The notes under the pieces: generated by a model
What the model was told of the DNA's origin: nothing
The model's database searches: none
The model's input: the letters and a program-made list of their open reading frames with translations, nothing else
In this document: positions 1,520 to 32,465 of the stretch, in pieces
How positions within the stretch are numbered: position 1 is the stretch's first letter
Layout of the letters: the number at the start of each line of letters is the position of its first letter
Made by a program: the position numbers and the translations under genes
Virus record (IMG/VR): IMGVR_UViG_3300042471_000334
Coordinates: 1 to 32,465 of that record
Strand: one strand, 5' to 3'
DNA: 32,465 bases
From: a virus

Positions 1520-1676
1520 GCCGAAGGTCAAAGAACGGTGGCGTTGCCCGAAATGCGAGAACACGGTGACGCTGTTCGTGAGTTCGTCTCAGCCGCCGAC
1601 CTGTTGTAACCCGAAGCGGCACAGCCACACGCGAGTCAAGATGGAACGATATGGCACTGCTGACCCAGAACAGTGA
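1512..1676 (+). CDS. Small zinc-ribbon-like protein (54 aa)
   Basis: I chose ATG at 1512 (MSRPKVKERWRC) over an upstream TTG at 1491, because 1512 overlaps the preceding stop in the style of this region. A CPKC pair at residues 12-15 and a TCC plus His cluster at residues 31-39 could bind one zinc ion. The protein is basic, fitting a nucleic-acid-binding role. It overlaps the next gene by 26 nt. Confidence 0.6.
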   Translation: MSRPKVKERWRCPKCENTVTLFVSSSQPPTCCNPKRHSHTRVKMERYGTADPEQ

Positions 1677-2391
1677 ACTCAGGCCGCACGGCATCTGGAA
1701 CTTCTCAATCCCGGCGTGGTACGCGAGGCTTAGCGACGGTTCGCTGTTCGTGACTTGCCCGAACGCTGGCGCTTGCGCGAAAGTGTGCTACGCGAGGAAC
1801 GGTACTTACTTGTTCAAGAATGTGAAGGCGGCGCACACGCGCAACCTTGAACTGATTCTCAACTCACCGTACCTGTTTCAGGAACAGATGGTCGCGGAAC
1901 TCGGCTCACGAAAGTTCAGACCGTCAGGCAAGCCGCGTCAGATGCCCGATGGCGTTGATATGAGCCGCCTCATCCCGTATCTACGCAAATGGATAAACAC
2001 AGGCGGCAAGGCCGTTCGCATTCACGACGCAGGCGACTTCTTCAACGCTGACTATCTCGCGTTGTGGGTTGAGATAGCCCGGCTCGTTCCCGATGTGCTG
2101 TTCTACGCTTACACCAAAGAAGTGAAGATGTTCAAAGAGTTCGGTGAGTTCCCTGTGAACTTCCGCTACCTTTTCTCAACAGGCGGCCTATCAGATGACC
2201 TGATTGAGGATGGTGACCGTCACGCTGATGTCTTCCCCGGCGAGGCCGAGATGGCCGCCGCAGGCTACTTATCGCAAGACGCATCAGACCTGCTGGCGAT
2301 ACTCCTGCCCACGAACCGTATCGGAATCCCTGCGAACAACATTCCGCACTTCAATAAGAAGATGGCTGGTAGGCGCTTCTCCGAGTTGTAG
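1651..2391 (+). CDS. GP88-family phage protein with Cys cluster
   Basis: This 246-aa protein matches the 'gene product 88' family known from mycobacteriophages and other actinophages. The diagnostic element is CPNAGACAKVCYARNG at residues 36-51, with Cys36, Cys42 and Cys46 in a C-x5-C-x3-C pattern. A second conserved block, RIHDAGDFFNADYLALW (about 123-139), is followed by FYAYTK. The layout of an N-terminal Cys triad, a barrel-like GDF strand and a YTK strand recalls radical-SAM-type folds, but that is my inference. It sits directly upstream of a ParB-like gene, a pairing also seen in other actinophages. Function is unknown. Confidence 0.8.
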   Translation: MALLTQNSELRPHGIWNFSIPAWYARLSDGSLFVTCPNAGACAKVCYARNGTYLFKNVKAAHTRNLELILNSPYLFQEQMVAELGSRKFRPSGKPRQMPDGVDMSRLIPYLRKWINTGGKAVRIHDAGDFFNADYLALWVEIARLVPDVLFYAYTKEVKMFKEFGEFPVNFRYLFSTGGLSDDLIEDGDRHADVFPGEAEMAAAGYLSQDASDLLAILLPTNRIGIPANNIPHFNKKMAGRRFSEL

Positions 2392-2414: not shown

Positions 2415-3053
2415 ATGAACATCAGAGAAGAAATCGCGCATCTCGCGCAACCGATAAGCAACTTCAAGACTCACCCGAAGAATGTCCGTCAAGGTGATGT
2501 CGGCGCTATTTCACAGTCGTTGAACGCGCACGGTCAATATCGCGCCATCGTCGTTCAGAAAAGCACCGGGTACATCCTCGCAGGCAATCACACATTCCTC
2601 GCGGCAAAGTCTCTCGGCTGGCAACAGATTGCGGCAACCTTCGTTGATTGTGATGACGAGCAAGCCATCAGGATTCTGTTGGTGGACAACCGTGCGAATG
2701 ACCTCGCGATGTACGACGACCGCGCTCTCGCTGACCTGTTGAAGGAACTGACCGCTACGAACAGCGGCCTTGACGGTTCACTATTTACCGGGGATGACCT
2801 TGACGACCTACTGTTCAGGCTTGAAGGAACGCTCGGTGAAGCGTATGTCGGGAACTCCATCACGGAGAACAAGGCAGATTACGAACAGCGCGACACGCGA
2901 ACCTTGCTCTTCCCGTTGAGCGTTGCTGACTACACGGATATGGCAATCAAACTGAAGGCGTTGCGTGAAGAGTACGGCGAAGACGACAACAGCGAACTGT
3001 TGAAGCGAATCATCAACGCGGCCTATGAACAGTTACCAACTGACGGTCAATGA
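2415..3053 (+). CDS. ParB/Srx-fold nuclease-like protein
   Basis: 212 aa, starting at ATG 2415 after a short spacer. Residues 12-100 form a ParB N-terminal (sulfiredoxin-fold) domain: an ISNFKTHPKNVRQGDV entry, SLNAHGQYRAIVV, then YILAGNHTFLAAKSLGW in place of the GERR box of chromosomal ParB, and VDNRANDLAMYDDRALADLL. Phage proteins of this class are usually stand-alone and occur beside DNA-modification enzymes. They may bind NTP or act as nucleases. The C-terminal 100 aa are acidic and lack a ParB-type HTH, so plasmid partition is unlikely. Its position upstream of two oxygenases and a glycosyltransferase suggests a part in DNA modification. Confidence 0.82.
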   Translation: MNIREEIAHLAQPISNFKTHPKNVRQGDVGAISQSLNAHGQYRAIVVQKSTGYILAGNHTFLAAKSLGWQQIAATFVDCDDEQAIRILLVDNRANDLAMYDDRALADLLKELTATNSGLDGSLFTGDDLDDLLFRLEGTLGEAYVGNSITENKADYEQRDTRTLLFPLSVADYTDMAIKLKALREEYGEDDNSELLKRIINAAYEQLPTDGQ

Positions 3054-3858
3054 ATGGGAACCTGCGGTACGGCTTGAAGCCGCATCGCAAGTACCCGGTG
3101 TAGACGGTGAACTGCTCGCCTATGTAGATGGCGAACCTGCGGTAGGGCAGTTTCTTGAGTGGGGTCAGAATGAGCAGACGCTCAAAGACCTGACGCGGTT
3201 CTTGCGATTCGGCGTGAAGTTCCAAACGCTCGGCCGCAACAACAAAGGCGGCATCCCCCGTATGTCTGGCATACGCGCCGCTAACGAATATTTCGGCACT
3301 ACGCCACCCGAGCAAGCGAAGAAGCGTTACGCCTGCCGCGACGGTCGCCTCTATGCGAAGCATCCTGAGTATCGCAAGATGATTGAAGACATCTCAGTTG
3401 CCGCGTGGCGCAAGTTCCAGCAAGAGTTCCCGAAGCAGGCCGCACAGCACGAAGACCTAGTGCGTACGCAAATACATCCCGATTGGCTTATCGCTGGAAC
3501 ACCGTTCACTTCAGGAATCGTGAACGACAGGTCAGCGTTGCCGTATCACAAAGACGCAGGCAACCTTCTCGGCAGTTGGTCAATGATGCTGACGCTCAGA
3601 GCGCACACGGAAGGCGGCGCACTCAACATCCCTGAACTCGGACTATGCCTCGGTGTACCTGACCACTCGTTGAGCATCTTTGAAGGGCAACGCTTCTGGC
3701 ACGGAGTAACGCCACTCATCTACCGTAAGAACGACGCTTACCGATTCACGCTCGTCTGGTATGTGAAGGAACGCATCCGCCAATGCGGTTGCCGTGAAGA
3801 AGAGGCTGAACGCGCAAGCCGCGAGGCCACGAAGATTCAGGACACCTACACGGAATGA
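3025..3858 (+). CDS. TET/JBP-like 2-oxoglutarate/Fe(II) dioxygenase
   Basis: 277 aa, overlapping the ParB-like gene by 29 nt (ATG at 3025 is the only early in-frame start). The C-terminal half has the double-stranded beta-helix motifs of 2OG dioxygenases: His175-x-Asp177 (PYHKDAGN), a GGALNIPELGLCLGV strand, distal His226 in FWHGVTP, and Arg240 in YRFTLVWYV for 2-oxoglutarate. The HxD plus EGQRFWHGVTP arrangement resembles the TET/JBP branch, which oxidises the 5-methyl of 5mC or thymine in DNA. About 150 N-terminal residues are basic and include aromatic-rich segments. A glycosyltransferase two genes downstream supports base hydroxymethylation followed by glycosylation. The fold is fairly sure; the substrate is inferred. 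Confidence 0.75.
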   Translation: MNSYQLTVNEWEPAVRLEAASQVPGVDGELLAYVDGEPAVGQFLEWGQNEQTLKDLTRFLRFGVKFQTLGRNNKGGIPRMSGIRAANEYFGTTPPEQAKKRYACRDGRLYAKHPEYRKMIEDISVAAWRKFQQEFPKQAAQHEDLVRTQIHPDWLIAGTPFTSGIVNDRSALPYHKDAGNLLGSWSMMLTLRAHTEGGALNIPELGLCLGVPDHSLSIFEGQRFWHGVTPLIYRKNDAYRFTLVWYVKERIRQCGCREEEAERASREATKIQDTYTE

Positions 3859-4040
3859 TTGTTCGCTGTATGACCTGTAAGGCAGTCGTAGTCGGGAAGC
3901 CCGGCGCGATTGTCGGTTGCCTCTGCGACCCTGACGCACCTACTTGGCTTGCGCTGGAGAACGAGAATCAACTACTCGGCGGCACTTACCGCTACTTCAT
4001 ACCGCTTACTGAAGTGCCGGATGACGCTGATGAGGTTTGA
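3855..4040 (+). CDS. Cys-rich mini-protein between the two oxygenase genes
   Basis: 61 aa, ATG at 3855 overlapping the previous stop by 4 nt (ATGA). Cys5 and Cys8 (CMTC) with Cys22 and Cys24 (GCLCDPDAPTW) suggest a small zinc-binding knuckle. The C-terminal half (GGTYRYFIPLTEVP) is not cysteine-rich. Being locked between two 2OG oxygenase genes suggests a role in the same pathway, but I recognise no defined family. Confidence 0.65.
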   Translation: MIVRCMTCKAVVVGKPGAIVGCLCDPDAPTWLALENENQLLGGTYRYFIPLTEVPDDADEV

Positions 4041-4812
4041 CCTTGAGGGATTCGTCACGCATATCGCGTCACGGTTAGCGAACGCTGATTGGCGTGACGA
4101 GCCGTATGGCCACGCCGAGATAGACGGGTTCTTACCTGAGATGGTGGCTGAGACAGTACGCAACGACTGTAAGCAGAAGTCGTTACAAGGTTATGTCTAC
4201 GACTCCGCTATTGAACGCAAGGAAGCGAGCAATCAGTGGAACGACTTCACGAGCGACACCTATGCGGTATTCGCGGCGATGAATCACCCTTACATCAACG
4301 CGGCGATACAACACCTGACTGGCCTTGACGGATTGTTCCTTGACGCCGGGCTACACGGTGGCGGCATCCACAGAACGAAGGCAGGCGGCCACCTGAACCT
4401 ACACATTGACTACGCGATACATCCAAAGTTGTTCGCCGAACGCAGACTCAACCTCATCATCTACCTGAACCCTGAATGGCGAACGGAATGGCTAGGGCAA
4501 CTAGAACTGTGGGCAGGTGACGGTAAGCCTGAACACTTCATCAAGAAAGTTGAGCCGGGCTGGAACAAGGCTGTTCTATTCGCCACAGGAGATAACTCGT
4601 GGCACGGCTTCCCTGAACCGTTGCGTTGTCCGACTACCGTGACGCGCACTTCCCTCGCTATGTACTACTGCTCGCTGACTAGGCCGAACACCAGCGAACG
4701 CTACAAGGCGAGGTTCGTGCCATCTCAACAGCAGGCGAATGACCCGGCGATAGTGGAACTGTGTGAGCGCCGAGCCGACGCGACACACGCCGAGAGCGTC
4801 TATCGGGGCTAA
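4030..4812 (+). CDS. 2OG-Fe(II) oxygenase (prolyl-4-hydroxylase-like fold)
   Basis: The frame is open from 3910, but the likely start is ATG 4030 (or 4021), just at the end of the preceding gene; this gives 260 aa. All oxygenase ligands are visible: His125-x-Asp127 (HLNLHIDY), distal His192 (SWHGFPEP) and Arg206 (TRTSLAMYYC). RLNLIIYLNPEW and GQLELW are typical of the P4H-like 2OG oxygenases. It differs clearly from the TET-like enzyme upstream, so this is not a simple duplication. Family members hydroxylate protein, nucleic acid or small-molecule substrates. In this cluster, further oxidation or maturation of a modified base is plausible but unproven. Confidence 0.8.
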   Translation: MRFDLEGFVTHIASRLANADWRDEPYGHAEIDGFLPEMVAETVRNDCKQKSLQGYVYDSAIERKEASNQWNDFTSDTYAVFAAMNHPYINAAIQHLTGLDGLFLDAGLHGGGIHRTKAGGHLNLHIDYAIHPKLFAERRLNLIIYLNPEWRTEWLGQLELWAGDGKPEHFIKKVEPGWNKAVLFATGDNSWHGFPEPLRCPTTVTRTSLAMYYCSLTRPNTSERYKARFVPSQQQANDPAIVELCERRADATHAESVYRG

Positions 4813-4814
4813 CT

Positions 4815-5636
4815 GTGAAGACATTCGTATTCGCCTACGACAGGTTCGCCACTATGACCACCCCAACAGCGCTTGAGCGTGAAGGCATTGACCACATCGT
4901 TCTATGCCATACCGAGGAACAGAAGGCCAGATTCATAGAACACGGCACAGCCAACCCTGACCGAATCATCGCGACAGGCAACCCGAAAGGGATAGCCCGT
5001 AACCGTAACAGTGCTCTTGAGATGATGGAAGAAGGCGAGTGGGCATTGTTCCTAGTGGATGACCTGAAGGCCATCAGCGAACTACGCAATCACGACCGCA
5101 TCACCGACACCGACATACCTATCAACGCGACGAATCAAAGGCACTATGCCGAAAGGTTCAAGACCCCGATAACGGCTACACAGTTCTTGAAGAGATGCCA
5201 AGAATTGGCTACTTACACAGACAAACTCGGCGGCCATCTCGCAGGCTTCTGTAACATAGACAATCCACTATTCAGAGCCAAGCACTACAAACTCAACACT
5301 CTGGCTGATGGCAGGGCAATCATCGTACGCAAGACGAAACTCAGGTACGACGAACAGGTACACCTACAAGACGACTACTGCTTCACCGCACTCAACCTGA
5401 GAACCTTCGGCGTGGTAGTAGTCAATCAGTGGGTACTGCCTGACTTTGATAGGTATACAGAAGGTGGCGCAGGCACGAAGGAAGAACGAATGCCCGACAA
5501 GATACGCGAGTGCGCCTACCTCGTAGAAAACTACCCAGAGTGGATAGCAGTCAGGGATAAGCCCGGCTGGCCTTACGGTTCGCACATCGCCATCAGGCAA
5601 CGCAAGAAACCTAAGCACCTGATGAACATCAGATAA
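4815..5636 (+). CDS. Probable TET-associated-type glycosyltransferase (TAGT-like, GT-A fold)
   Basis: 273 aa, GTG at 4815 just 2 nt after the previous stop. The N-terminus has a Rossmann-like strand (MKTFVFAYDRF), then HIVLCHTEEQKARF, GNPKGIARNRNSAL (about 56-68), and LFLVDDL with Asp82-Asp83 as the metal/nucleotide-sugar-binding DxD equivalent. HLQDDYCFTALNL (about 183-195) fits the second acidic motif that activates the acceptor. This order fits the glycosyltransferases associated with TET/JBP dioxygenases in phages, which add a sugar to a hydroxymethylated base. Gene order (dioxygenase then glycosyltransferase) agrees. The GT-A call is firm; the TAGT assignment and DNA substrate rest on my reading plus context. 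Confidence 0.72.
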   Translation: MKTFVFAYDRFATMTTPTALEREGIDHIVLCHTEEQKARFIEHGTANPDRIIATGNPKGIARNRNSALEMMEEGEWALFLVDDLKAISELRNHDRITDTDIPINATNQRHYAERFKTPITATQFLKRCQELATYTDKLGGHLAGFCNIDNPLFRAKHYKLNTLADGRAIIVRKTKLRYDEQVHLQDDYCFTALNLRTFGVVVVNQWVLPDFDRYTEGGAGTKEERMPDKIRECAYLVENYPEWIAVRDKPGWPYGSHIAIRQRKKPKHLMNIR

Positions 5637-5640
5637 TCAA

Positions 5641-5946
5641 ATGGGCAAGATAGGTAAGCCTTGCCTCAACTGCGGCAACATCAGCACCACAGGCTCACGA
5701 TGCGAACCCTGTCAAGCCAGATGGAATAGACAACACCCGAAACCCTTCAGGCCGCATTACTCAGGCAACTACCGCAAGAGAGCCAAACAAGTACGCGACA
5801 ACGCAACAATCTGTTGGCTATGTGGACAAGGTGAGAAGCCAAACGACATCTGGACAGCAGACCACATCATCCCCGGCGACCCAGACTCCCCACTTCTACC
5901 AGCACACCGCAGTTGTAACAGCAGTCGCGGTAACCTTCAACGCTAA
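5641..5946 (+). CDS. HNH endonuclease
   Basis: 101 aa, ATG at 5641. It has an N-terminal zinc knuckle (Cys8, Cys11, Cys21, Cys24) and a classic HNH core: CWLCG (58-62), TADHIIPGD with Asp74-His75, and LPAHRSCNSSRGN (86-98) with His89 and Asn98. HNH proteins just before the terminase genes are common in HK97-like phages, where they assist packaging-linked cleavage. It may serve that role, or be the last gene of the modification cluster. A terminator-like hairpin and T-run follow its stop. Confidence 0.85.
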   Translation: MGKIGKPCLNCGNISTTGSRCEPCQARWNRQHPKPFRPHYSGNYRKRAKQVRDNATICWLCGQGEKPNDIWTADHIIPGDPDSPLLPAHRSCNSSRGNLQR

Positions 5947-5979: not shown

Positions 5980-6089
5980 GGAAACGGTCGGGCTGTTCAC
6001 CCCTGCGCTCGCCTCGCGCATACAGCCGCGAATAATCCCATTTTCTTGGCGCGTGAACTACGATGATAAATCAACGATGTGGAGTAGCG
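5980..6089 (+). promoter_or_regulatory. Intergenic leader before the packaging genes
   Basis: This gap lies between the modification and packaging modules, behind a possible terminator, so it is the natural place for a late promoter. I see AT-richer spots (AATAATCCCA near 6031, GATAAATC near 6065) but no well-spaced -35/-10 pair. GGAG at 6081-6084 is the RBS of the small terminase gene. Confidence 0.3.
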
Positions 6090-6560
6090 ATGGGTGGTAA
6101 AGGTTCAGGCCGAAGGCCGAAGCCGATTGAGCAGAAACGCAGAATAGGCAATCCGGGCAAGCGTGCGTTGCCACGCGATAGCGCGGAAGTAATCGTGTTG
6201 CCGTTTAGGGAAGTGCCAGAACCGCATAGGCCGATTGCGACTGCGTTCGGACGCAGGATGTGGGATGCTGTCTGGAACGCTGGCGCGGCTTGGCTCAAAC
6301 CGCATATGGATGCGGAGATAGTCCTGATGGCGTGTGAGGCGATAGATGAGCGCGTTCAGTTGAGGAATCAGGTTATGCTGAACCCCGGCTCGTGGCGCGA
6401 GAGAAGAGGGTTGCGTGAACTTGATAGGCAGATTGCTTCGTTGCTCGGACAGATTGGATTCTCTCCTACTGACCGGGCGAATCTAGGATTGGGCGAGAGT
6501 AAGAACAGTGACCTCCACGAAATCCGCGCCAGAATCCAAGCAAAGAGGAATCAAGCCTAA
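6090..6560 (+). CDS. terS: Terminase small subunit
   Basis: I place the start at ATG 6090 (MGGKGSGRRPKPIEQ), 5 nt after GGAG, rather than ATG 6063; this gives 156 aa. The Gly/Arg/Lys-rich N-terminus with RRIGNPGKRALP is typical of P27-type small terminases. The middle is helical (WDAVWNAGAAWL; EIVLMACEAID) and the end FSPTDRANLGLGE is a common C-terminal signature in this family. The protein recognises phage DNA and feeds it to the large subunit. It overlaps the next gene by 53 nt. Confidence 0.85.
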   Translation: MGGKGSGRRPKPIEQKRRIGNPGKRALPRDSAEVIVLPFREVPEPHRPIATAFGRRMWDAVWNAGAAWLKPHMDAEIVLMACEAIDERVQLRNQVMLNPGSWRERRGLRELDRQIASLLGQIGFSPTDRANLGLGESKNSDLHEIRARIQAKRNQA

Positions 6561-8013
6561 GAGCGCTTGGGAACCTGCGTTCTACACTCAGCGCCGCTAC
6601 AAGCAGACTGATGGCGATGAGATAATCAAGTTCGCGGAGAATCACTTCCGCGTATTGAAGGGATTCCGCGCTGGTAATCCTCTTGAGTTCACAGCGTGGC
6701 AGAAGTGGCTTCTTCGCGGCCTGTTTGAGCGTAATGATGCTGGGCGGTTGAGGTATCGCCGCGCACTTATTGGCTTGCCGCGTAAGCAAGGGAAGTCGCT
6801 GATGGGTTCAGCGATAGCGGTCTACTCAATGATTGCTGGCGAGCCGGGCGCTGAGGTGTACGCAGTAGCAGGCGACAGACAGCAGGCGCGAATCATCTTC
6901 AATGAAGCGCGTCAGCAGGTTCAGAACTCTGAGATGTTGTCTCAGGTGACGAAGGTGTATCGGGATGCTTTGGAGATGCCAGCGTTCGGTTCCGTGTTCC
7001 GCGTGTTGTCGTCTGAGTTCAAGTCTCAGGCAGGCCTCAACCCTTCAACGGTTCTGTTTGACGAGTTGTGGAATCAGGGAGACAGTGAACTGTTTGACCA
7101 GATGACGCTCGGTTCTGGCGCTCGCCTTGAGCCGTTGGTGTTGAGCATCACGACAGCAGGCTTCAACCTAGATTCGCTGGCCGGGCGGTTGTATCACTAC
7201 GGGAAGCAGTGCGCGTCTGGTGAGGTTGATGATGAGTCGTTCGGGTTCTGGTGGTGGGAGGCCGCCGCCGACTGCGACATCAACGACCGCAAGCAGTGGC
7301 ATCGCGCCAACCCGAACATCGCTGAAGGCTTGCTTGACCCTGAAGATATGGCGACCGCTACGAAGCAGACCACCGAATCAGCGTTCCGACGCTGGCGCTT
7401 GAATCAGTGGGTACGAACACAGGAGTCGTGGCTACCTGTCGGCGCTTGGGAGCGTTGCGTCAGCGACCTAGACCTAGACCTTGAACTACCTGTATGGGTA
7501 GGGATTGATATGGCGTTGAAGCACGACAGTATCGCGGTCGTCATCGCGCAACCGCAAGCCGAGCGCGTGGTGGTGCGTTCTAAGATTTGGCAACCGAAGG
7601 ACGAGGGAGTGGATGTCTCAGAGGTTGAGGCCTACCTGCGGCAGGTTCACCAGACCTACAAGGTCACTGAGTTCGCGTTTGACCCGGCGTACTTTCAGCG
7701 TTCAGCGGAGGCTCTCGTTGATGATGGTCTACCGATGGTGGAGTTCCCTCAGTCAGGTCAGCGAATGGTGCCAGCCTGCGGTCAGACCTATGAACTGATA
7801 GTTCAGGGGAAGGTTGCTCACGATGGCTCACCAACTTTCACCGACCAAGTGTTGTCGGCCGCACAGCGTATGACTGATTCGGGTTGGCGCTTGAGTAAAG
7901 GCAAGAGCCGCCGCAAGATTGACGCTTGTATCGCGATGGTGATGGCAGTAGACCGGGCGACCCGTAGGCAGAAAGTCGTTGATGGCCCTAGTGTGGTGAA
8001 TGTATGGGATTGA
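6508..8013 (+). CDS. terL: Terminase large subunit
   Basis: 501 aa from GTG 6508; no closer start fits. The ATPase motifs are Walker A GLPRKQGKS (89-97) and Walker B TVLFDE (181-186). The C-terminal RNase H-like nuclease shows Asp334 in VGIDMALKHDS, Asp392 in FAFDPAYF and Asp472 in KIDACIAMVMA. This is a full-length motor and headful or cos nuclease. A circularly permuted assembly would fit headful packaging, but the sequence alone does not decide the mechanism. Confidence 0.95.
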   Translation: MTSTKSAPESKQRGIKPKSAWEPAFYTQRRYKQTDGDEIIKFAENHFRVLKGFRAGNPLEFTAWQKWLLRGLFERNDAGRLRYRRALIGLPRKQGKSLMGSAIAVYSMIAGEPGAEVYAVAGDRQQARIIFNEARQQVQNSEMLSQVTKVYRDALEMPAFGSVFRVLSSEFKSQAGLNPSTVLFDELWNQGDSELFDQMTLGSGARLEPLVLSITTAGFNLDSLAGRLYHYGKQCASGEVDDESFGFWWWEAAADCDINDRKQWHRANPNIAEGLLDPEDMATATKQTTESAFRRWRLNQWVRTQESWLPVGAWERCVSDLDLDLELPVWVGIDMALKHDSIAVVIAQPQAERVVVRSKIWQPKDEGVDVSEVEAYLRQVHQTYKVTEFAFDPAYFQRSAEALVDDGLPMVEFPQSGQRMVPACGQTYELIVQGKVAHDGSPTFTDQVLSAAQRMTDSGWRLSKGKSRRKIDACIAMVMAVDRATRRQKVVDGPSVVNVWD

Positions 8014-26476: not shown

Positions 26477-26948
26477 GACTCAACTGCCGTACCTCGGCAC
26501 GGAGGGCTATGTGACGCGGCCTGCGTCTATCGCTCGCGCTCAACGCGAAGCGTTGGATGGCACGGTCACGGAACGCCAAGCCCGAATCCTCGCGTATCTC
26601 AACGAGAAGCCTGAAGGCGCAATTTGGGCTGAAGTGGGCGAAGGGTTGGGGCTTCATCACGGTCAGGTGTCGGCATCGCTGTCGGTGCTTCATCAGGCCG
26701 GGGAAGTGTTCCAACTACGGCACACCATCAACAGGTCGCATCCGTATGTTCATAAACGGTTCAGGTATCTCTACATAGCGAACGAGCGTTATGACGAGCC
26801 GACGCGCACCAGCGCCAAACTGCTACGAGGCAGGATTGACCTCGCTATCAGTTGGCTTGAAGCGTCTGACTGCGAGGCCTACGACCCGGCGTTCTGTATC
26901 AAGGCGGCGCTATCCGCGTTGAACGGAGAGTCCGATGCTCAGGTCTGA
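26469..26948 (+). CDS. Winged helix-turn-helix protein
   Basis: 159 aa from ATG 26469 (MAETQLPYLGTEGY). Residues about 37-77 form a winged helix: TERQARILAYLNEKPEGAIWAEVGEGLGLHHGQVSASLSVLHQAGEVFQL, with recognition helix HGQVSASLSVLHQAG and a wing around RHTINRSHPYVHKRFRY. The C-terminal helical region (LLRGRIDLAISWLEASDCEAYDP) may mediate dimers. It sits directly upstream of WhiB and is the best candidate for a phage transcriptional regulator. Confidence 0.75.
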   Translation: MAETQLPYLGTEGYVTRPASIARAQREALDGTVTERQARILAYLNEKPEGAIWAEVGEGLGLHHGQVSASLSVLHQAGEVFQLRHTINRSHPYVHKRFRYLYIANERYDEPTRTSAKLLRGRIDLAISWLEASDCEAYDPAFCIKAALSALNGESDAQV

Positions 26949-27216
26949 ACGGTGGCGCAATCAGGCGGCCTGCGTAGGGTTACCTACGGAATGGTTCTTC
27001 CCTGAAAGCGGCGGAGACAAAGCGTTTATGGAAGGGAAGAAGGTCTGCTCGCAATGCCCGGTGAGGGAATCTTGCCTGCTGTTGGCGGATGATTTCGTCG
27101 CAACAGGAGATAGGTACGGGTTGTTCGGTGGTCTTACGCCTAACGAACGCAGATTGAAGAGGCGGATTGAAGTGAACCGATTCTTATGGAGGGAAGATGG
27201 AAGAACGCAAAGGTGA
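26935..27216 (+). CDS. whiB: WhiB-family iron-sulfur transcription factor
   Basis: 93 aa, ATG at 26935 overlapping the previous gene by 14 nt. All WhiB markers are present: Cys13 (NQAACVGL), Cys38-x2-Cys41-x5-Cys47 (VCSQCPVRESC) for the [4Fe-4S] cluster, the GLFGGLTPNERR turn (62-73) and a basic tail. WhiB proteins bind the primary sigma factor and are confined to Actinobacteria and their phages, which fixes the host phylum. Phage homologues can override host WhiB2-controlled genes. Confidence 0.95.
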   Translation: MLRSERWRNQAACVGLPTEWFFPESGGDKAFMEGKKVCSQCPVRESCLLLADDFVATGDRYGLFGGLTPNERRLKRRIEVNRFLWREDGRTQR

Positions 27217-30854: not shown

Positions 30855-31166
30855 AACATCCACATTCCAGCGGAGGCGGTCGCGGCTGTTGAAGCCACGC
30901 GCAAGCGCCACCGTGAACAGATTGAGGCGCACTGCCGCCGCACCGCTGAGGCGCGTCAGGCAGACCACGCGATGAAGCGTGTCGTCTCCGCACTCACCAC
31001 CGCGAAGGTTCGCCTCGTCGCACTCGCTGAGGAGTACGGCATTGACCTGACGGAGTCCGATGATGAACTCTTCGGCCTCATCAATAAGGCAATCGCCCAA
31101 GCCAAAGCAGACCGTGAGGCGCTTGTTGAGATGGTACAAGCGTTCACGGAAGACGCGCCGAAATGA
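30852..31166 (+). CDS. Helical hypothetical protein (104 aa)
   Basis: ATG 30852 is preferred to the longer open frame from 30465, which overlaps the upstream genes. The protein is almost all helix with Ala, Arg, Glu and His (EAVAAVEATRKRHREQIEAHCRRTAEARQADHAMKRVVSAL; FGLINKAIAQAKADREALVEMVQAF), likely a coiled coil. The stop overlaps the next start (ATGA). Its function is unknown. Confidence 0.65.
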   Translation: MNIHIPAEAVAAVEATRKRHREQIEAHCRRTAEARQADHAMKRVVSALTTAKVRLVALAEEYGIDLTESDDELFGLINKAIAQAKADREALVEMVQAFTEDAPK

Positions 31167-31726
31167 CGAAGGCGCGTATCCCATTCGCTGAGGCTCACGC
31201 CACCGCGACACTCATCCGCAATCACATCCTGCTGAGCGCGAAGGCCTGCCATCTCGCAGGCTCGTTGCGCCGCGAGGCTGAGACTGTCGGTGATATTGAC
31301 CTCGTCGTTCTCGCCTCGTCACTTGACTCGGTGCGCCTACCGAAGACGGTGAAGAAGCGTTCAGGCGGCGCGAAGTACCGCCGCTACGACACCGTCACCG
31401 AAGAAGGCAACACCATCGGCGTAGACATCTGGCTCTGCGAGTCCGAGCAACAACTCGGCGCGTTCCTCTGGTTCGCCACAGGTCCGGCAGAACTCAATGT
31501 CTGGATGCGGCAACGCGCCAAGCAACGCGGCCTCACGCTGACGCAGTATGGTGTCGCGCTTCGCACGGTCGCGGTCAAGCAACCGAAGGCGAACTGCCGC
31601 ACCGAAGAGAGCGTGGCTCGCCTACTTGAGATGCCGTACCTCACGCCACAAGAGCGCCAGATATGGCGCGAGAAGGTTCCTGCCGCCACCCGGCGTCAGG
31701 CGAACAACACAGAGAGGAACAAGTAA
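31163..31726 (+). CDS. Minimal PolX/Pol beta-like nucleotidyltransferase
   Basis: 187 aa, ATG at 31163. CHLAGSLRREAETVGDIDLVVLA is the family X polymerase palm signature: Gly33-Ser34, Arg36-Arg37, catalytic Asp44 and Asp46. The third Asp is Asp88 in NTIGVDIWLC. FLWFATGPAELNVWMRQRAKQRGLTLTQYGV (101-131) matches the thumb region of PolX (TGS..N...R..A...G..L). The N-terminal lyase domain and HhH motifs of full-length Pol beta are missing. It may fill gaps or add nucleotides in DNA repair. Its last codons (NTERNK) lie inside junction motif copy 4. Confidence 0.8.
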   Translation: MTKARIPFAEAHATATLIRNHILLSAKACHLAGSLRREAETVGDIDLVVLASSLDSVRLPKTVKKRSGGAKYRRYDTVTEEGNTIGVDIWLCESEQQLGAFLWFATGPAELNVWMRQRAKQRGLTLTQYGVALRTVAVKQPKANCRTEESVARLLEMPYLTPQERQIWREKVPAATRRQANNTERNK

Positions 31727-32131: not shown

Positions 32132-32465
32132 GTGAGTACCGAAACAATGGAGTGGCTCAATCAGAATGTTCTGATTGGGTTCACCGACAAGAGAGGCCAA
32201 GCGTGGCATCACCGCGCTTCGGCTCAGGGAAGCGAACCGAATCACTATCCGCAGGCGATTCCTGTGGATGATGTGCGTCGTCGTCTCTTCTCGTGGAAGG
32301 CAATGGAAGTGCCGATGTTCGTGCGTGGCAGAGAATCCATTCACGCGCCGAATCATCACGAGTTGATTACGGTTCCGAACCGTAAGGCAATCATCCGTGA
32401 TGACAGCCACGAGGTTCTCGGAGTCGTATCCGAGTCCTATGAGCCGCATCAGTACGACGAGGTGC
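32132..32465 (+). CDS. DUF932 / phage-plasmid-like protein (5' part, continues at base 1)
   Basis: GTG 32132 lies 2 nt after the previous stop and opens MSTETMEWLNQNVLIGFTD, KRGQAWHHRASAQG, a typical DUF932 start. The frame is uninterrupted to the window end, and base 32339 equals base 1 in the same phase. See the entry at 1-822 for the remainder. Confidence 0.85.
   Translation, partial: MSTETMEWLNQNVLIGFTDKRGQAWHHRASAQGSEPNHYPQAIPVDDVRRRLFSWKAMEVPMFVRGRESIHAPNHHELITVPNRKAIIRDDSHEVLGVVSESYEPHQYDEV
32339..32465. repeat. Terminal direct repeat, right copy
   Basis: Identical to bases 1-127 (see that entry). Remove one copy to obtain the circular genome. Confidence 0.93.

Follow-up and report, generated by a model that had tools for sequence, protein, structure and literature searches.

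Which base of phage DNA is modified by an oxygenase of the TET/JBP family that is encoded together with a glycosyltransferase (GT) in a genome lacking a recognizable C5-cytosine methyltransferase? The question is raised by IMG/VR virus record IMGVR_UViG_3300042471_000334, the whole of which (32,465 bp; hereafter 'the window') was analysed. Five nearly overlapping genes on the plus strand occupy positions 2415–5636 and encode a ParB-like protein, a TET/JBP enzyme, a Cys-rich mini-protein, a second 2-oxoglutarate- and Fe(II)-dependent (2OG) oxygenase and a GT of the GT-A type, all of them located where a previous reading made from the letters alone (the sequence-only reading) had placed them. 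We consider it fairly probable, from comparison of this cassette with its relatives, that it serves the post-replicative hypermodification of thymine, in which 5-hydroxymethyluracil (5hmU) would be made in DNA and then be glycosylated, and that it thus represents a phage analogue of base J. A cytosine methyltransferase would be unneeded in such a pathway, because thymine already bears the methyl group.

In the proposed sequence of events, ParB would bring the enzymes to phage DNA, the TET enzyme is predicted to hydroxylate the 5-methyl group of thymine in DNA and thus to yield 5hmU (as suggested by the exchange of modules described below), and the GT, which resembles TET-associated glycosyltransferases (TAGTs), is predicted to link a sugar to the hydroxymethyl group. 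The resulting base-J-like glycosylated thymine would shield phage DNA from host nucleases, and the prolyl-hydroxylase-like second oxygenase may, less certainly, hydroxylate or oxidise the attached sugar.

Enzymes of the cassette and completeness of the genome

The ParB-like protein (2415–3053, plus strand), presumably the DNA-binding or targeting partner of the TET enzyme, matches PF02195 (ParB_N; 28.1 bits, cut-off 26.3) and phrog_723 (E 3e-38), and its gene overlaps the TET gene (3025–3858, plus strand) by 29 bp. A ParB gene likewise precedes the TET gene in nearly all relatives. The TET protein scores 40.1 bits against Tet_JBP (PF12851), that is, above the curated cut-off of 34.9, and its catalytic residues H175-x-D177, H226 and R240 are invariant across 11 sequences, so that its identification by the sequence-only reading as a TET/JBP dioxygenase with HxD, His and Arg residues is confirmed. 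Many records annotate this family as queuine tRNA-ribosyltransferase; we rejected that label, since the window's TET protein exceeds the cut-off for Tet_JBP and has no match to a family of that kind. The TET/JBP enzymes found in cluster B mycobacteriophages and in cyanophage MED4-117 (phage records H5, H10, H13, H14 and others) are labelled queuine tRNA-ribosyltransferase or DpdA-like, and the 'DNA methylase' of MED4-117 matches ParB_N; these labels look like misannotations.

The GT (4815–5636, plus strand) matches phrog_842 (beta-glucosyl-HMC-alpha-glucosyltransferase) with E 1e-6, and residues D82, D83 and D187 are invariant, with D82-D83 constituting the acidic GT-A motif. When an AlphaFold model built from 23 sequences (predicted local distance difference test score, pLDDT, 92) was compared with predicted viral structures using Foldseek, the best named matches were TAGT-domain proteins (E down to 4e-16; template-modelling (TM) score up to 0.73), and a beta-glucosyl-HMC-alpha-glucosyltransferase ranked among the top ten viral fold matches. 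In the PDB there was no close cell-envelope GT; the matches were all generic folds of the GT-A and nucleotidyltransferase kinds, and their TM scores stayed below 0.5. When window-type GTs were compared with TAGTs profile to profile, the probability was 1%, and a strict hidden Markov model of window-type GTs, from which bridging sequences had been excluded, did not reach the TAGTs; for the latter reason we do not file the GT as a TAGT. TAGTs exhibit a GT-A fold and act, in T6, on glucosylated 5-hydroxymethylcytosine (5hmC), while a solitary TAGT of unknown function is present in 288 of 753 phage genomes (PMC13216743). Hence the dioxygenase falls within TET/JBP and the GT outside the cell-envelope enzymes, its relationships being those of a DNA-type GT-A enzyme: the two assignments on which the sequence-only reading had staked its proposal of a DNA-base hypermodification cassette thus survive, and the proposal itself is supported.

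The window comprises the entire virus record. Its first 127 bases are repeated exactly and in direct orientation as its last 127 (positions 1–127 and 32339–32465), which closes the contig to a circle of 32,338 bp with a DUF932 gene spanning the junction; the genome thus looks complete, and because of the terminal repeat we rejected the view that the record is a fragment. For these reasons the lack of a C5-cytosine methyltransferase, which the sequence-only reading had also remarked upon, is meaningful: PF00145 has no match in the window at E≤10, although a very divergent enzyme among the unassigned genes could escape. No homologue of the thymidylate synthase/hydroxymethylase family was found in the window either, and we therefore see no route to the modified base at the nucleotide level.

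Thymine or cytosine as the oxidised base

Relatives of the TET protein were found in 89 sequenced phage records, mostly of actinobacteriophages, and in 399 viral contigs (individual relatives are referred to by L numbers). The order ParB, TET, module, (HNH), small terminase subunit (TerS), large terminase subunit (TerL) is nearly universal among the closer relatives, and ParB-TET ahead of the terminase is widespread, usually without a C5-cytosine methyltransferase. What differs is the module following TET, which may be (i) a GT-A enzyme, (ii) an amino acid:DNA transferase (PF18724) with a P-loop kinase (PF18751), supplemented in L034 and L037 by a GNAT protein and an FAD oxidoreductase, or (iii) one of several others. 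The kinase is present in all 20 records with PF18724 above cut-off (in 19 of them itself above cut-off), and neither family was found in the window-type GT records tested; the window is devoid of PF18724, and no kinase gene is seen in its cassette (PF18751 itself was not searched there).

Across a TET tree of 69 domains, the labels 'GT' and 'transferase/kinase' change 13 times, and at least 10 of these changes are forced by well-supported (starred) branches; the labels carry small errors, with L004 (TAGT and kinase, no PF18724) counted in the transferase/kinase group and L069 counted as GT. L025, encoding PF18724 and kinase, nests in the window's own TET clade, and TET enzymes with different modules pair at 93% identity (L052 with kinase, L054 with GT), 83% (L061 with transferase and kinase, L075 with a window-type GT) and 65% (L032 with transferase and kinase, L010 with GT). 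Within the pairs L052/L054 and L061/L075, the sequences surrounding HxD, the distal His and the Arg differ by no more than a few conservative changes, and none of the columns that best separate GT from transferase types falls within the active-site stretches. Moreover, a single open reading frame (ORF) of 662 residues at L051:3801–5789 fuses a TET/JBP domain to a PF18724 amino acid:DNA transferase. According to Lee et al. (2018, 2022), PF18724-type transferases and their kinases reportedly belong to thymidine hypermodification via phosphorylated 5hmU. This hypermodification proceeds by phosphorylation of 5hmU in DNA, followed by its substitution (PMC6449724). Since modules are swapped over the TET tree, active sites are alike, a fusion exists and the partners are thymidine enzymes, the simplest reading is that all TETs compared would make one oxidised base, 5hmU, from thymine in DNA. 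Hence, among the substrates considered by the sequence-only reading (host-methylated cytosine, thymine as oxidised by JBP, or another base), thymine emerges as the best supported from module exchange, the PF18724/PF18751 partners and the active sites.

Several observations weigh against thymine, and part of them speak for a pathway in which TET would oxidise 5-methylcytosine furnished by a methyltransferase of the host or of a co-infecting phage and the GT would glycosylate 5hmC. Characterised phage TETs reportedly use 5-methylcytosine (Burke et al. 2021, cited in PMC12730594). Glucosylated 5hmC is the substrate of those TAGTs whose function is known, and both TAGT-like folds and phrog_842 are tied to glucosylation of 5hmC (PMC13216743). 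Of the profile families Tet_JBP, 2OG-FeII_Oxy_3 and TAGT (PF20691), the first two are matched above cut-off and TAGT is not: the window GT scores 13.2 bits (cut-off 27.5), and its relatives, with E 0.003–0.005, likewise remain below cut-off. C5-cytosine methyltransferases occur in relatives L022, L023, L026, L047 and L064, and it is on account of L022 and L023, both of GT type and the two nearest near-full-length contigs, that the cytosine pathway stays under consideration. In records of 24 kb or more, PF00145 is found in 5 of 17 of the GT type vs 1 of 11 of the transferase type, a gap too small to decide. We nevertheless regard the cytosine pathway as quite unlikely. The methyltransferase gene lies directly upstream of ParB in L022 (the place taken by GP88 in the window), beside WhiB in L023, and elsewhere in L026 and L047, so that it appears to have been acquired independently; the transferase- and kinase-encoding phage L058 also possesses one, which over 203 residues shares 69% identity with the L047 enzyme. 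PF00145 is absent from all nine sequenced isolates with this TET; 9 of the 78 viral contigs contain it, three through weak partial matches. No C5-cytosine methyltransferase is found in the window or in the TAGT-type isolates PRodriguez, Altadena and Bumble. Furthermore, TET active sites fail to separate GT from thymidine types, albeit a PF18724 enzyme working on 5hmC is conceivable. The methyltransferase, which occurs with GT-type as well as transferase-type cassettes, was rejected as a marker of cassette type.

That the target is not the phage genome at all (e.g., host surface glycans, RNA or a virion protein) is very improbable: relatives of the second oxygenase and some GT2-like folds are indeed found in glycan clusters, but the order ParB-TET-module-terminase is nearly universal and the exchange partners are DNA-base enzymes.

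Some of the remaining modules may mark other decorations. TET is followed in L021 (L021:4498–6730), L024 and L055 by a MobA-like nucleotidyltransferase, an APH-like kinase and a GT (with an additional HAD-like protein in L024 and L055), a set which resembles phosphocholine-type (LicA/LicC) activation and may indicate another base decoration. An FkbM-type methyltransferase, which could methylate the hydroxymethyl group, is the sole gene between TET and HNH/terminase in L027 (L027:10452–11147) and L046 (L046:10685–11380), and further modules consist of unassigned proteins. On the 7.4-kb contig L011, which lacks a TET, two ParB genes are succeeded by a window-type GT and then by a radical SAM protein (L011:1375–3412). 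Contig L193 (RGDC01000007.1), which belongs to an Actinomycetota metagenome-assembled genome and probably represents a phage or prophage, carries ParB, TET, PF18724 transferase and kinase consecutively.

The second oxygenase and the mini-protein

The second oxygenase (about 4030–4812, plus strand) scores 56.4 bits against 2OG-FeII_Oxy_3 (PF13640; cut-off 27), and H125-x-D127, H192 and R206 are invariant in four sequences, in agreement with its description as a distinct 2OG oxygenase by the sequence-only reading. Its longest ORF opens with TTG at 3910, but the homologous part begins at 4030, a start which overlaps the stop codon of the mini-protein gene. Profile comparison with the PDB identifies OGFOD1 and prolyl hydroxylases as nearest; the fold predicted from the single sequence (pLDDT 34) was unusable. 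The preceding zinc-ribbon-like mini-protein (61 residues, 3855–4040, plus strand), likewise recognized earlier as Cys-rich, has a 95% identical counterpart in the sister contig L012; in L022 a small ORF related to it follows the GT, and comparable matches lie close to the cassettes of further relatives.

Contig L012 is informative for the function of the second oxygenase. Its TerL and TET are 98–99% identical to those of the window, the gene of the second oxygenase is absent, and the mini-protein is directly followed by a GT that is 60% identical to the window's GT. As L012 both lacks the 2OG gene and has a differing GT, either the 2OG-GT stretch was swapped in one piece, or gain or loss of the 2OG gene accompanied the change of GT. 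A single-sequence search of viral contigs revealed no close relatives of the oxygenase; an alignment search revealed 300, of which 80 were fetched. None of these 80 lies near a TET, and the viral relatives adjoin GDP-mannose dehydratases, epimerases, GT2 enzymes and methyltransferases. Because relatives reside among nucleotide-sugar genes and the 2OG gene changes along with the GT in L012, we tentatively propose, as a quite possible function, tailoring of the added sugar by hydroxylation or oxidation. An unrelated second oxygenase, of PF05118 type (Asp/Arg hydroxylase), occurs in transferase-type cassettes (L018, with homologues in L063 and L084), and it appears that both kinds tailor the group added to the base, that is, a sugar in the window and an amino acid in the transferase-type cassettes.

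It is doubtful that the second oxygenase acts outside the DNA pathway as a protein hydroxylase, or takes the hydroxymethyl base further to the formyl or carboxyl state. OGFOD1 and prolyl hydroxylases, its closest solved profile relatives, do act on proteins, but the gene lies within the cassette and is gained or lost with the change of GT, sugar genes surround its viral relatives, and the recurrence of PF05118-type enzymes in L018, L063 and L084 suggests tailoring of an added group. The complete succession of two 2OG oxygenases, with 5hmU made by TET, a sugar added by the GT and this sugar oxidised by the prolyl-hydroxylase-like enzyme, is as a whole unlikely.

Known systems and neighbouring genes

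The ParB-TET-GT cassette is already known in actinobacteriophages and was reportedly predicted computationally by Iyer et al. (2009, 2013). The suggestion of the sequence-only reading that the combination could be an undescribed pathway is thus not borne out for the pathway as a whole, and solely the second oxygenase is unusual. New are the 2OG-containing variant, the exchange of modules within a lineage and the argument for thymine as the substrate that is derived from this exchange. Cluster B mycobacteriophages and Arthrobacter phages PRodriguez and Altadena share with the window the order ParB, TET, GT-A and the lack of a C5-cytosine methyltransferase, and in PRodriguez the cassette likewise resides just upstream of the large terminase. 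However, the GTs of PRodriguez and Altadena are clear TAGTs (131 and 60 bits) whereas the window's GT is divergent, and cassettes of their type add a predicted deacetylase (in PRodriguez also a kinase) where the window adds the mini-protein and the second oxygenase. Phage systems that reportedly act on 5-methylcytosine (Burke et al. 2021) share TET and GT, and differ from the window by their C5-cytosine methyltransferase.

Rhodococcus phage Tonitrus encodes a five-gene thymine hypermodification system (PMC11955845), which starts with ParB and TET homologous to those of the window and then adds an amino acid:DNA transferase and a 5hmU kinase instead of a sugar transferase. Phages M6, ViI and phiW-14 would share 5hmU as the common intermediate in the favoured thymine reading, and their transferase and kinase families recur among the TET relatives; they are thought to make 5-hydroxymethyldeoxyuridine (5hmdU) before replication (PMC6449724), whereas the window's TET would make 5hmU within DNA. 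The logic proposed for the window is that of base J of kinetoplastids, where TET/JBP enzymes (JBP1/2) hydroxylate T in DNA and a glycosyltransferase (JGT) adds the sugar; the window differs in having a ParB partner, and no J-binding module is seen. Glycosylated 5hmU had not been reported in phages as of 2019 (PMC6449724), and the product of the two oxygenases would, if the proposal is true, be a hypermodified base of a new type and give viruses of prokaryotes a counterpart of base J. A testable rule arises: one ParB-TET core would make the reactive hydroxymethyl base, and a swappable module would add sugars, amino acids, or possibly methyl groups and others. If this is right, the gene that follows TET would allow the type of base to be predicted in hundreds of phages, with the second oxygenase marking a further, unexplored decoration.

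The cassette is directly followed by HNH-TerS-TerL, that is, by an HNH endonuclease-like protein (5641–5946, plus strand; phrog_338, E 8e-7), which is probably a packaging neighbour outside the pathway, and by the small and large terminase subunits (6063–8013, plus strand; phrog_83 and phrog_9) serving as a fixed downstream landmark. Directly upstream of the cassette lies a GP88-family protein (1651–2391, plus strand; PF17338, 152.5 bits). A motif alignment of this family reveals invariant C-x5-C-x3-C and RIHDxGDF motifs, and its gene adjoins ParB in L021, L023, L026, L031 and L034 and is placed between TET and GT in L041 (L041:4240); GP88 may be an iron-sulphur enzyme of the cassette pathway. 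A WhiB gene at 26935–27216 of the window, together with the hosts of the relatives, indicates that this small phage probably infects an actinobacterium. Finally, the window encodes at 31163–31726 a small phage protein with DNA polymerase beta-type thumb and palm domains.

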